Positions 20,186 through 23,530 of a DNA stretch of 64,000 bases are shown here, in pieces (positions within the stretch are counted from its first letter, which is position 1; each line of letters opens with the position of its first letter). Origin of the DNA: Gallionellales bacterium GWA2_54_124 (GTDB taxonomy: Bacteria > Pseudomonadota > Gammaproteobacteria > Burkholderiales > Gallionellaceae). A program made the position numbers and the translations under genes. Location of the stretch: assembly GCA_001801025.1 (NCBI GenBank), contig MGWO01000013.1:16476-80475 (forward strand). The letters run 5' to 3'. The notes under the pieces were generated by a model, which was not told the DNA's origin, searched no databases, and saw only the letters and a list, made by a program, of their open reading frames with translations.

Positions 20186-21022
20186 ATGAATCCACAACGC
20201 ATTGACCAACAACGGCTCGTAAAACGACTGCCGGCACGGACGCTGGACAGCCACAAGGGTTTGTTCGGGAAAGTTGTCGTCATCGGCGGCGCCTCCGGCA
20301 TGACGGGCGCTGCCATTCTGGCCGCACGGGCAGCGCTAAAATCAGGCGCGGGGAGCGTGTATGTCGTCCTGCTGACCGGCAATCCGCCCGCAGTGGATTT
20401 CATACAGCCCGAACTGATGCTGCATGACGCAACAACCCAGCTGCCATATGCCACCGTGCGGATTGTCGGCTGCGGCATGGGTTGCGATGCGGTCGCACGA
20501 AACTTTTTGCAAGACTCGCTGCAAAGCCAGAGCGCTCTGGTGCTCGACGCCGATGCACTGAATTTAATCGCACTGCATGCCGAATTGCGCGAATTGCTTG
20601 CGCAGCGCAACGCACCCACCGTGCTGACACCGCATCCGGGAGAAGCCGCCCGACTACTCGCGTGCAGCACAGAAGATATCCAGAGCGACCGCATCACTTC
20701 AGTTCAAAAACTGGCTAAAATTTTTTCCTGTACCGTGATTTTAAAAGGTGCCGGCAGTCTGTGTGCCACGCGCGAAGGGCTCTACATCAACACAACCGGC
20801 AATCCTGGTATGAGCGGCCCCGGCATGGGTGATGCACTGGCAGGTATGATTGCTGCCTTCATCGCACAGGGAATGAACACCGATGACGCGGCATTACTAG
20901 CGATATGCCTGCACGGCGCTGCGGGCGATGAATTATCAAAACAGGGCATTACCATTGGCATGACCGCCTCAGAACTGACCGATCAGGCGCGCCAGCTGTT
21001 AAATCAGTGGCGCTCAATTTAA
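20186..21022 (+). CDS. nnrD: ADP/ATP-dependent NAD(P)H-hydrate dehydratase
   Basis: NnrD repairs hydrated NAD(P)H. The 278-residue protein is the ribokinase-like dehydratase domain alone, without the NnrE epimerase domain found fused in E. coli YjeF. Motifs are HKGLFGKVVVIGGASGMTGAAILAARAALKSGAGSV, TPHPGEAARLL, VILKGAGSL and the catalytic NPGMSGPGMGDALAG. The last has SGPGMGDALAG where ATAGMGDVLSG is more common, but the catalytic Asp is kept. The spermidine-synthase-like gene starts 20 bp downstream. Confidence 0.92.
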   Translation: MNPQRIDQQRLVKRLPARTLDSHKGLFGKVVVIGGASGMTGAAILAARAALKSGAGSVYVVLLTGNPPAVDFIQPELMLHDATTQLPYATVRIVGCGMGCDAVARNFLQDSLQSQSALVLDADALNLIALHAELRELLAQRNAPTVLTPHPGEAARLLACSTEDIQSDRITSVQKLAKIFSCTVILKGAGSLCATREGLYINTTGNPGMSGPGMGDALAGMIAAFIAQGMNTDDAALLAICLHGAAGDELSKQGITIGMTASELTDQARQLLNQWRSI

Positions 21023-21042
21023 CCCCCCACTGACCACTCAAC
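21023..21042. repeat. Short remnant of the 7-bp-unit element
   Basis: The 20-bp gap between nnrD and the next gene contains ACTGACC and ACTCAAC as adjacent 7-bp units, similar to the ACTCACG/ACTTACC units at 3748-3813. It is short, so the relation is tentative. Confidence 0.35.
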
Positions 21043-21798
21043 ATGACTACCCCTATCGACATCTCCGAAAAAGACGGCATACGTTATCTGCACTTTGGTT
21101 CCTCCTGGGTACAAGGCGCTATGCGCATCAATCGTCCGTGGAATCTGGAACTTGAATACACACGCGAAATGATGGCCTCCCTACTGCTGCGCAAGGAATC
21201 TCGCTGGCCCCGCAAAATTTTACTGATCGGTCTGGGCGCCGCCTCCTTAACCAAATTCCTGTATCGCTATCGCCCCGATGCGCACCTGACCATCGTCGAA
21301 ATCGAACCTGACGTTGTCGCCGCCGCACGACATTTTTTCAAGCTGCCGGAAGATGACAAGCGCATTCACATGATCATCGGCGATGGCGCTGAATTTGTGC
21401 TCAGCACTAATAAAAAATTCGATCTGATTCTGGTCGACGGCTTCAACGAACACGCGCACCCGGGTCAGCTTAACAGCCTGCCGTTTTATCAGGCATGCAG
21501 AAGCCGCCTGTCGGATCAGGGCATCATGGCGGTGAATCTCTTGGGACTATGCAAAGGCGTGCTGGGCGGCTTCGCGCACATCCTTACCGCTTTCAATGAA
21601 CGCGCACTCCTGTTCCCGTCCTGTGAGAGCGGCAACACCATCGCCTTTGCGACAGAAGGCGAATTGGTCAATATCAATCTGGAAGATTTAAAAACGGCAG
21701 CGATCGCCTTACAAGAAGATACCGGCCTGAATCTGCTGCCGACGCTGTCCCGGCTCGAAAAATCAAACATATGCACAAATAGCACATTGATTATATAG
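21043..21798 (+). CDS. Spermidine-synthase-like methyltransferase-fold protein
   Basis: The 251-residue protein has the Rossmann fold of the spermidine synthase family: LLIGLGAASLTKFLYRYRPDAHLTIVEIEPDVVAAARHFF, IGDGAEFVL and FDLILVDGFNEHAHPGQLNSLPFYQACRSRLSDQGIMAVNL. The expected aspartates of the aminopropyltransferase site (GGGDG, DxxD) are not in their canonical form, so it may be a paralogue rather than a true SpeE. It ends the nnrD operon and converges on the response regulator at 22308. Confidence 0.75.
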   Translation: MTTPIDISEKDGIRYLHFGSSWVQGAMRINRPWNLELEYTREMMASLLLRKESRWPRKILLIGLGAASLTKFLYRYRPDAHLTIVEIEPDVVAAARHFFKLPEDDKRIHMIIGDGAEFVLSTNKKFDLILVDGFNEHAHPGQLNSLPFYQACRSRLSDQGIMAVNLLGLCKGVLGGFAHILTAFNERALLFPSCESGNTIAFATEGELVNINLEDLKTAAIALQEDTGLNLLPTLSRLEKSNICTNSTLII

Positions 21799-22307
21799 AA
21801 AATACATAAATACAGGCCGCTGCATATGATGGCAAAAAAGCGCATGCAAATTCAACGACTGGTGATAAAACGCTATCAATAAGGCCATAAAACAGGCAGC
21901 CTGATAAAAACCTATGCTGCACAGCAGGTTAAGCGGTTAACCCACACAGGAATCCACAACGTTATCCACACAATATGTGGGTAACTATTAACGATTGATT
22001 TCAAATCGGGCACTTTAGACTGCCGTCCGTCCATCCTGCGCAAGAAATTGAAAATCAACACAAAATTTTTCGCAGATAAAGCGCAACAATATGATTAATA
22101 ATCAGATATTTTAAACTGCAAATTAGGCACACCGTTAAAATCCCTTACCCGACAACAGCTTAGCAGCCCAATCCACACAACCGCCCACACCCTTATCCAC
22201 AGTTTTTGTGGGTAACTCTTCATTCACAGCCGTTACAAACACACAACACCCGATACTCCACCTGCGACAACAACAATACAGAATGGGGAATTGACATCGC
22301 TGCCAGA
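21799..22307. other. 509-bp gene-free convergent gap with two DnaA-box modules
   Basis: No gene is seen here. Two copies of TTATCCACA-N5-TGTGGGTAA lie at 21962-21984 and 22193-22215, exactly 231 bp apart in direct orientation. TTATCCACA is the perfect high-affinity DnaA box; TGTGGGTAA is the reverse complement of TTACCCACA, one mismatch from it. Each module is preceded by an AATCCACA partial box (21951-21958 and 22170-22177). Between them lies an AT-rich stretch (about 22041-22140). Both flanking genes point into the gap, so promoter function is unlikely. It could be a DnaA-titrating or origin-like locus. Confidence 0.7.
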
Positions 22308-23432
22308 TTAATTACGTGCCTTATCAAGCTGCTCAAGGATGCACTCCATATGTTCGTCAATTTCCAACCCTTCGTCGTACAGCGCTTTTGCCTGCACGAT
22401 CGCGGTCTCGAGCATGCCAGCCAATTCTTCCTCCTGTGACTGAGTAATCCCTATCGTTAGCATCGCCTGATCGAATTTCCTTTGCAGTTCCAGAAATATC
22501 CTGCTGCTTCTAATCTCCTGATTGCGATGGCGTTGATCAATGCGCTGCAGTGCCTGATGCGTACGTTCCAGCAACACTTTATTAGCTGCGTGCTGCCTGA
22601 CAACTTCAGCGTTAGTCTCAATAGAAACGACCCGCGCATTAGCGCCTTCGGCCAGCCAGGCCAGATTGTCCTTCATACGGCCATGTCGCTCAGGATCATC
22701 GCGAGAGTTACTCTTCACGATAATGGTAATGTGCTCATAACTGCATGACGTACGAGAACCGAACTCAAACAGCCGCGCCTGAAGCGACATATTAGTCAGC
22801 ACCGACTCCTCCAGCGCCGAACAAGGTCCGTTAGACGATAGAGCAACATACCCCTCACGCCCGTGAATTTTAACGCTGGCCTCAAATCCGTAAGCACACA
22901 GCGTATTCAAGACTTCGCGGCACAGACTTTCATAATCCGGGCAGCTAAAACTATTGCGCATGAATTGCAGTACCGCACCCATCTCAGCGGAACTCGACAT
23001 CGCCGTCATCGCCGTGGAAAAAGCACTGAAAAGATCCGTCTTAAGACGCTGACGCTCAGTACGATTGGCCAGCGCCAATTTAATTTTTGAGCGCAACTCA
23101 TCGACCGCTACCGGCTTGGTCAGATAATCGTCACCGCCAGCCTCGTAGCCTGCCAAACGGTCTTCATCACTGAGCCTGCCCGAGAGAAAAATAATCGGTA
23201 ACTCGCCTATTGCATGATCTTCACGCAAGGTGCGACATACTGCGTAGCCTGACATTCCGGGCATCTCGACATCGAGCAACAACAAGCAAGGCTCCGCCTT
23301 AACAATGATCTCCAACGCCGCGGCACCACTCTCAACATGCCGGATATCGTATTCTGAAGCCAGCATTTCCACCGTCACAAGTGCTGAAAATTCATCATCA
23401 TCAATTAGGAGTATGTAAGGTTTTTCGTTCAT
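22308..23432 (-). CDS. Response regulator with unassigned C-terminal region
   Basis: The 374-residue protein has an N-terminal receiver domain (residues 5-122) with acidic pocket DDD (11-13), phospho-acceptor D54 in LLLDVEMPG, S84 in LSG and K106 in TKPV. A linker follows, then a region of about 100 residues (150-260) that may be a sensory-like alpha/beta domain (FEASVKIHGREGYVALSSNG). The last 100 residues are predicted long helices, possibly coiled coil. No DNA-binding, GGDEF, EAL or kinase domain is seen. The ATG at 23430-23432 has a good AAGGA site. It is divergent from another regulator. Confidence 0.82.
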   Translation of the reverse strand: MNEKPYILLIDDDEFSALVTVEMLASEYDIRHVESGAAALEIIVKAEPCLLLLDVEMPGMSGYAVCRTLREDHAIGELPIIFLSGRLSDEDRLAGYEAGGDDYLTKPVAVDELRSKIKLALANRTERQRLKTDLFSAFSTAMTAMSSSAEMGAVLQFMRNSFSCPDYESLCREVLNTLCAYGFEASVKIHGREGYVALSSNGPCSALEESVLTNMSLQARLFEFGSRTSCSYEHITIIVKSNSRDDPERHGRMKDNLAWLAEGANARVVSIETNAEVVRQHAANKVLLERTHQALQRIDQRHRNQEIRSSRIFLELQRKFDQAMLTIGITQSQEEELAGMLETAIVQAKALYDEGLEIDEHMECILEQLDKARN

Positions 23433-23530
23433 GATTAATCCTTTGTATGACAAATTAAAATCCCCGGATGGATACACAGTCATTTAGCGCTCAAATTAAC
23501 CCTAATAATAAAAGTTCTTTTCACCTGCGG

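Follow-up and report, generated by a model that had tools for sequence, protein, structure and literature searches.

In Escherichia coli, the sites DARS1 and DARS2 convert ADP-DnaA into ATP-DnaA by stimulating the release of ADP, and initiation is promoted; datA, together with IHF, stimulates the hydrolysis of DnaA-bound ATP. The activity of DARS2 requires Fis sites. In the parts of the literature consulted, DARS are described as sets of three DnaA boxes with the same spacing at DARS1 and DARS2, box I being opposite in orientation to boxes II and III (PMC5742627, PMC8682772), and intervals of 2-3 bp between boxes favour the head-to-tail assembly of DnaA (PMC8682772). According to the same parts, IHF is common to datA and DARS2 (PMC5742627), the spacing of DARS2 is conserved in beta- or gammaproteobacteria (PMC5742627) or in gammaproteobacteria (PMC4245941), and accessory elements have been described for related gammaproteobacteria (PMC4245941, PMC8682772). 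DARS1- and DARS2-like sequences are conserved in many proteobacteria according to the consulted part of a review (PMC10380432), so this kind of site is already known. In the literature searched, which covered few subscription journals, we found neither DARS in Gallionella nor tandem DARS cores reported, and no paper linking DARS2 with xseA.

The locus analysed here is a gap between convergent genes (Table 1) in the window, that is, the whole stretch of 64,000 nt under study (MGWO01000013.1, contig C13 of a genome of 2.90 Mb in 14 contigs). An earlier note on this DNA had described in the gap two copies of TTATCCACA-N5-TGTGGGTAA, at 21962-21984 and 22193-22215 and 231 bp apart, and had read them as a DnaA-box cluster of the datA or DARS type outside oriC. 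Both copies, their distance and the convergent genes were located again in the sequence, and the reading is partly supported: the boxes are arranged as in the E. coli DARS cores, and dnaA lies on another contig. As the layout was not found in the datA stretch of E. coli, the choice between datA and DARS is narrowed toward DARS. We consider it probable that the gap is a duplicated DARS2-type DnaA-reactivating site with two tandem cores, a prediction made from the DNA sequence.

The whole genome has three occurrences of the motif (18 fixed bases), two of them in the gap and one upstream of an xseA-like gene; the latter presumably encodes XseA, the large subunit of exonuclease VII, and is divergent from what we take to be ExbB/TolQ- and ExbD-like genes. 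As a control, the pattern read backwards has no occurrence in the whole genome. The motif is present in 24 of 61 genomes, the own one included, and its backward control in 0 of 61. In addition, TTATCCACA with up to one mismatch is found 23 times in the window against 10.5 expected, a number reached in none of 100 shuffles.

Position of the gap relative to oriC and to the neighbouring genes

The position of dnaA and the GC skew both agree with the view of the earlier note that the gap is not the replication origin. A full-length dnaA is located on contig C3; immediately downstream of it, before a gene that we take to be dnaN, is a gap with five exact TTATCCACA boxes (from 161618 to 162091). The GC skew stays below zero in each 2-kb step across the window; for these two reasons the oriC reading was rejected. 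A spacing-tolerant search for the core pattern gave no match at the dnaA-dnaN gap of the own genome.

It is also very improbable that the gap is a transcription element, whether a promoter region under DnaA control or a terminator that serves both of the converging genes. Most xseA-linked copies of the module sit between divergent genes, where promoters are expected, and the palindrome of module 2 was flagged as terminator-like. However, both genes flanking the gap end in it and 0 promoter-like sites were predicted in 21600-22500, which bears out the earlier judgement that a promoter role is unlikely, and the single terminator-like site of this interval compares with 1.1 expected by shuffling, so that a terminator was discarded as no more than chance. 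Moreover, the hairpin does not include box III, and copies of the module are found beside other neighbours. No Rfam RNA family was found in 21000-23000 up to E 1.

As regards the surrounding genes, the loci closest by protein are labelled Gallionella. The C-terminal part of the response regulator has no Pfam match, its paralogues in the same genome are 29-31% identical to it, and its best match elsewhere among the 61 genomes reaches 48%. This gene was tried and abandoned as an anchor for finding the locus in relatives because it has too many paralogues and its best relatives elsewhere are 48% and 32% identical. A gene for NAD(P)HX dehydratase lies near the locus (20186-21022 of the window, and L094), and E. 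coli datA adjoins queG-nnr, with the same enzyme activity, a coincidence probably due to chance.

Anatomy of the modules and comparison with the E. coli sites

Read on the minus strand, each module starts with box I, followed after 5 bp by box II in inverted orientation and then, at intervals of 3 bp, by boxes III and IV (Table 1).

Table 1. Features of the gap and its flanking genes (positions in the window)
Feature	Position	Strand	Sequence or remark
Spermidine-synthase-like (speE-like) gene	21043-21798	+	left neighbour, ends at 21798
Convergent intergenic gap	21799..22307		houses both modules
Module 1 Fis consensus, 1 mismatch	21883-21897		GCCTGTTTTATGGCC, overlaps TGCYY element
Module 1 TGCYY element	21894..21898	-	TGCCT, offset 51 beyond box III
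Module 1 box IV	21938..21946	-	TGTGGGTTA, 3 bp from box III
Module 1 box III	21950..21958	-	TGTGGATTC, at the same 3-bp distance from box II as in DARS1 and DARS2 of E. coli
Module 1 box II, perfect DnaA box	21962..21970	-	TGTGGATAA
Module 1 box I	21976..21984	-	TTACCCACA, inverted to box II across 5 bp
Module 2 IHF consensus, one mismatch	22084..22096	-	AATCATATTGTTG, offset 84 beyond box III
Module 2 TGCYY element	22125..22129	-	TGCCT, offset 51 beyond box III
Module 2 box IV	22169..22177	-	TGTGGATTG
Module 2 box III, degenerate	22181..22189	-	TGTGGGCGG, 4 mismatches to consensus, position kept
Module 2 box II, perfect DnaA box	22193..22201	-	TGTGGATAA
Module 2 box I	22207..22215	-	TTACCCACA
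Response-regulator gene	22308-23483	-	right neighbour, coding strand ends at 22308

Since TTACCCACA departs from the DnaA consensus at position 4, box II is the only perfect box in each module. The earlier note had placed AATCCACA before each module; this holds for module 1, where it lies 3 bp from TTATCCACA, in the position of box III. In module 2 it lies 15 bp from TTATCCACA, which is the position of box IV, and the slot of box III is filled by CCGCCCACA. Of the 15 speE-linked cores, 11, both window modules included, have a fourth box (up to 3 mismatches) 3 bp past box III, as do 2 of 19 xseA-linked cores of the genus and 5 of 25 cores of other families. For module 1, no IHF consensus with up to one mismatch occurs at the conserved offset.

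Three DnaA boxes, with box I inverted relative to II and III, were found in both window modules and in two other cores of the genome, the xseA-linked one and a fourth on contig C1, which also fit the box I-N5-II-N3-III layout. The spacing of 5 and 3 bp is that of DARS1 and DARS2, as measured on E. coli K-12 DNA and in the window, and the locus is intergenic and away from oriC. The fourth core (L096:1497-1531, G000 contig C1) lies in a large gap preceded by a gene that, by eye, we take to be an EAL-domain gene; it has TGCCT at 51 and an IHF consensus with one mismatch at 85.

The K-12 DNA of the DARS1, DARS2 and datA regions was compared under a fixed mismatch limit. The DARS1 stretch contains a single such arrangement, TTATCCACT-N5-TGTGGATAA-N3-TGTGTATTA between bioD and uvrB, and the DARS2 stretch also a single one, TTATTCACC-N5-TGTGGATAG-N3-TGTGAAGAA upstream of mutH; we identify them as the DARS cores because of their place and of the description in the consulted parts of PMC5742627 and PMC8682772. 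In the datA stretch, the box I-N5-II-N3-III arrangement was not found within the mismatch limit.

With DARS2, the window locus shares the order of the core boxes, the 5/3-bp spacing and an IHF-like site downstream on the same side, at offset 74 past box III in E. coli (which may correspond to the footprinted IBS1-2) and at 84 in module 2, module 1 having none within one mismatch there. At 40 in E. coli there is AGCCC, compared with TGCCT at 51 in the window; thus the step from this element to IHF is of 34 bp in E. coli and 33 here, and the E. coli pair lies about one helical turn nearer to the core. However, DARS2 has one core, whereas the window locus has two, plus the fourth 3-bp-spaced box; the TGCYY element of the window is not recognisable with confidence as a Fis site; and the consensus DnaA boxes found in E. 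coli at 176, 271, 295 and 422 past box III have no clear counterpart in the window except the neighbouring core. DARS1 shares the order and spacing of the core boxes and, unlike the window locus, lacks an IHF consensus (up to one mismatch) or a TGCYY-like element at these offsets. datA also has DnaA boxes outside oriC, with a tandem, 3-bp-spaced pair that resembles II-III, but no head-to-head box I within 5 bp. By its anatomy the locus thus appears to be of DARS type, closest to DARS2, and it is from this likeness that we infer its activity; the tandem cores, the fourth box and the phased TGCYY element would be variant features of such a locus.

Conservation of the core and of the accessory elements

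A profile built from 46 modules outside the genus was searched over 428 kb. It finds both window modules (E 3.4e-10 and 7.4e-9), E. coli DARS1 (E 2.4e-8) and, weakly, DARS2 (13.0 bits, E 0.013); datA matches with 21.0 bits (E 4.5e-5) from box II onward, without box I. Ten shuffled copies (4.28 Mb) gave a sole hit up to E 10, with 7.0 bits. As datA scores above DARS2, the profile separates the two poorly outside the inverted pair. This match to the tandem box pair of datA, together with the IHF that datA and DARS2 have in common (PMC5742627, part consulted), speaks for a datA-like site or a plain DnaA sink, where the locus would repress initiation by titration or by ATP hydrolysis with IHF. We regard this alternative as unlikely, since the inverted box I at exactly 5 bp was not found at E. 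coli datA, whereas both DARS have it and so do 55 of the 60 distinct matches, and since fixed distances to TGCYY and IHF would be needless for a sink.

The spacing itself was evaluated by a search that tolerated I-II intervals of 2-8 bp and II-III intervals of 0-6 bp (49 combinations). A match at any allowed spacing was obtained in 26 of 41 genomes of the genus and in 124 of 300 of the order, compared with 0/41 and 1/300 for the backward control. The five of the 60 distinct matches in the fetched loci that are not N5/N3 have spacings 3/3 (two), 4/3, 3/1 and 6/2, and in the order-wide search other spacings account for 10 among the matches listed (hand count). A first control, mismatch-tolerant and made on loci partly chosen for N5, had given 54 sites with 5/3, 26 with 7/3, 16 with 5/5, 8 with 5/1, 4 with 5/4, 4 with 7/5, 3 with 5/6 and 1 with 7/1; the sites other than 5/3 are read as putative 2-bp register slips in CACA repeats, and the claim on spacing rests on the later, spacing-free searches instead. 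It should be noted that duplicate sequences were removed before the counts of the 60 matches, of the accessory elements (64 cores) and of the profile, and that several fetched loci evidently come from the same genomes (e.g. equal core sequence).

Box I reads TTACCCACA in 26 of the 55 N5/N3 cores. As in the genus it is mostly this sequence, off the DnaA consensus, the palindrome has a fixed sequence of its own, which would suit some other protein that binds the TTATCCACA/TGTGGGTAA palindrome and is unrelated to DnaA. Such a binder has hardly any likelihood, because in other families box I varies outside CCACA, with a perfect box II (by the search pattern) and a DnaA-like box III being kept, and because the E. 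coli counterparts are characterised DnaA sites (PMC8682772, part consulted).

The offsets of the accessory elements were picked after inspection of the sequences. Of the 39 genus and speE-linked cores, 37 have TGCYY at 48-51 beyond box III and 22 have the IHF consensus (up to one mismatch) at 83-86; among the 25 cores of other families, each of the two elements is present at these offsets in 17. E. coli is not among these 64 cores, and since the counts demand the exact box II TGTGGATAA, the L074 core (TGTGGGTAA) and the second L073 core (TGTGTATAA) were left out. At offsets 85-124, the IHF consensus (up to one mismatch) occurs in 27/64 cores against a shuffle mean of 1.9 and a maximum of 6. 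The Fis consensus is weakly above chance with one mismatch (40/64; shuffle mean 25.8, maximum 36) and is found exact in 6/64 (mean 1.8, maximum 6). A Fis-consensus-like sequence covers the TGCYY element in part of the cores; such matches are weakly above the shuffles, and the element is a possible Fis site.

In a class-wide search that allowed TGCCY at any of 31 distances, 21 of 369 genomes matched, the own one included, with 0 for the backward control. All four matching cores of the own genome share one distance although 31 were allowed. The 21 matches in the other 20 genomes have lengths, counted by hand from the listed coordinates, of 84-87 (13), 97-98 (5) and 74-76 (3), classes that differ by steps of about one helical turn. 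In 20 loci selected by TGCCY, none of them chosen for IHF, the IHF consensus lies at 84-86 in nine, at 75 in one (L190, with TGCCY at 39, as in E. coli DARS2) and at 97 in one (L197), and nine have none; in L206 and L208 TGCCY has moved by one turn and IHF has not. Furthermore, an exact distal box TTATTCACA is present at 157-159 in 10 of 19 xseA-linked cores; the window has none, but counted from box III of module 2, box II of module 1 is found at offset 210.

Concerning the proteins, the own genome has two IHF-alpha and one IHF-beta over the cut-offs, a stand-alone Fis-family protein of 81 residues just under the curated cut-off (117.8, cut-off 122), and, probably as Hda, a short second match to DnaA.

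On the E. coli model, ADP-DnaA would bind box II and, head to head with it, the weak inverted box I, and boxes III and IV, in 3-bp steps, would take up further DnaA molecules head to tail. IHF, about 85 bp away, would bend the DNA so that the DnaA complex meets the binder of the TGCYY element, Fis or another factor; DnaA would drop its ADP, leave and rebind ATP, and more ATP-DnaA would be available for the next initiation at oriC. Two tandem copies could give the locus a greater capacity, and the neighbouring core may act as the distal DnaA box. By analogy, then, we infer that DnaA, IHF and Fis would bind at the gap, with ADP release and an effect on initiation.

The spacing rules (N5, N3, about 50 to TGCYY and about 85 to IHF) offer a sequence test by which DARS-like sites can be sought in many uncultured bacteria. 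They also draw attention to an accessory element not singled out in the consulted parts of the literature on DARS. It is tempting, and so far quite tentative, to suppose that the DnaA reactivation sites of Gamma- and Betaproteobacteria share an unnamed third part, TGCYY, which would keep its helical phase relative to the core and would be the binding site of Fis or another factor, and that the Gallionella modules are repeat units multiplied in tandem and across the chromosome, whose copy number would set the rate of DnaA recharging. The natural variation in the number of cores (one, two, three, dispersed) is a way to ask whether DARS dosage sets the timing of initiation.

Genomic place and number of cores

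The 28 loci used here were picked by their speE-like protein, that is, without selection for the core. In 11 of them one to three cores lie downstream of the speE-like gene, all in the orientation of the window relative to it, so that the boxes, whose conservation beside the same flanking gene the earlier note had proposed as a check, do recur in relatives. TGCYY is at offset 51 in 15/15 of the speE-linked cores of these 28 loci, 14 of which were listed regardless of TGCYY. The other 17 loci have no complete module, some of them being short on that side (e.g. L070, L066), and one (L071) has a box pair without the other parts. Nine further speE-like stretches, partly overlapping the 28, carry cores in three cases, and among the other six, L188 has near by only an xseA-linked core.

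Next to xseA, a core is present in 19 of 30 genus loci (18 on the 5' side and L115 on the 3' side) and in 12 of 30 order loci, from six other families, with a further family in L006. The xseA-side place is older than the speE-side place. In the closed relative G064 (2,572,603 bp), dnaA is at 352, the xseA-linked core at 1,005,464 and the speE-like gene at 1,717,374; the last two are on different arms, having covered about 78% and 67%, respectively, of the distance from dnaA to the point facing it. The speE-like stretch of G064 has no core, so the chromosomal position of the window by analogy with this genome is a guide only.

Several cores together were observed in 4 of 12 loci: the window, L064 (232 bp), L065 (216 and 255 bp) and L073 (201 bp). 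Outside the genus, core-to-core distances of 276 bp (G199; also G160 among the matches listed) and 465 bp (G043) were found. The earlier note had attached importance to the 231 bp as 22 helical turns, and this part was not supported, as only L064 agrees (22.1 turns); the distances of 216, 255, 201, 276 and 465 bp correspond to 20.6, 24.3, 19.1, 26.3 and 44.3 turns. Helical phasing between the two cores, kept in this one relative and not in others, was dropped; the register is kept inside each module rather than between modules.

Such a distribution raises a further alternative, namely that the locus is a duplicated, partly decayed and functionless spare and that the xseA-linked copy does the work. 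Module 1 is without a good IHF site and module 2 without a good box III; many relatives do not have the locus, and in G028 and G033 the modules have clearly been scattered as units. Nevertheless, we find this rather unlikely in view of the constant TGCYY offset of the speE-linked cores and of boxes I and II, which are intact in both window modules; the duplicated DARS2-type site remains the preferred reading.

In G028 (L214, L215, L216) and G033 (L217, L218), about 230-300 bp around the core are repeated at separate places with 78-82% identity, and nothing is shared beyond these 230-300 bp apart from short stretches at chance level; two of the copies in G033 are in inverted orientation, 382 bp apart. 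The modules of these genomes thus have the look of dispersed units, for which the xseA gap is the probable source. Finally, L133:1497-1543, from a genome of 1.2 Mb (G232), presents a symmetric double core, with a box III at 3 bp on both sides of the head-to-head pair.
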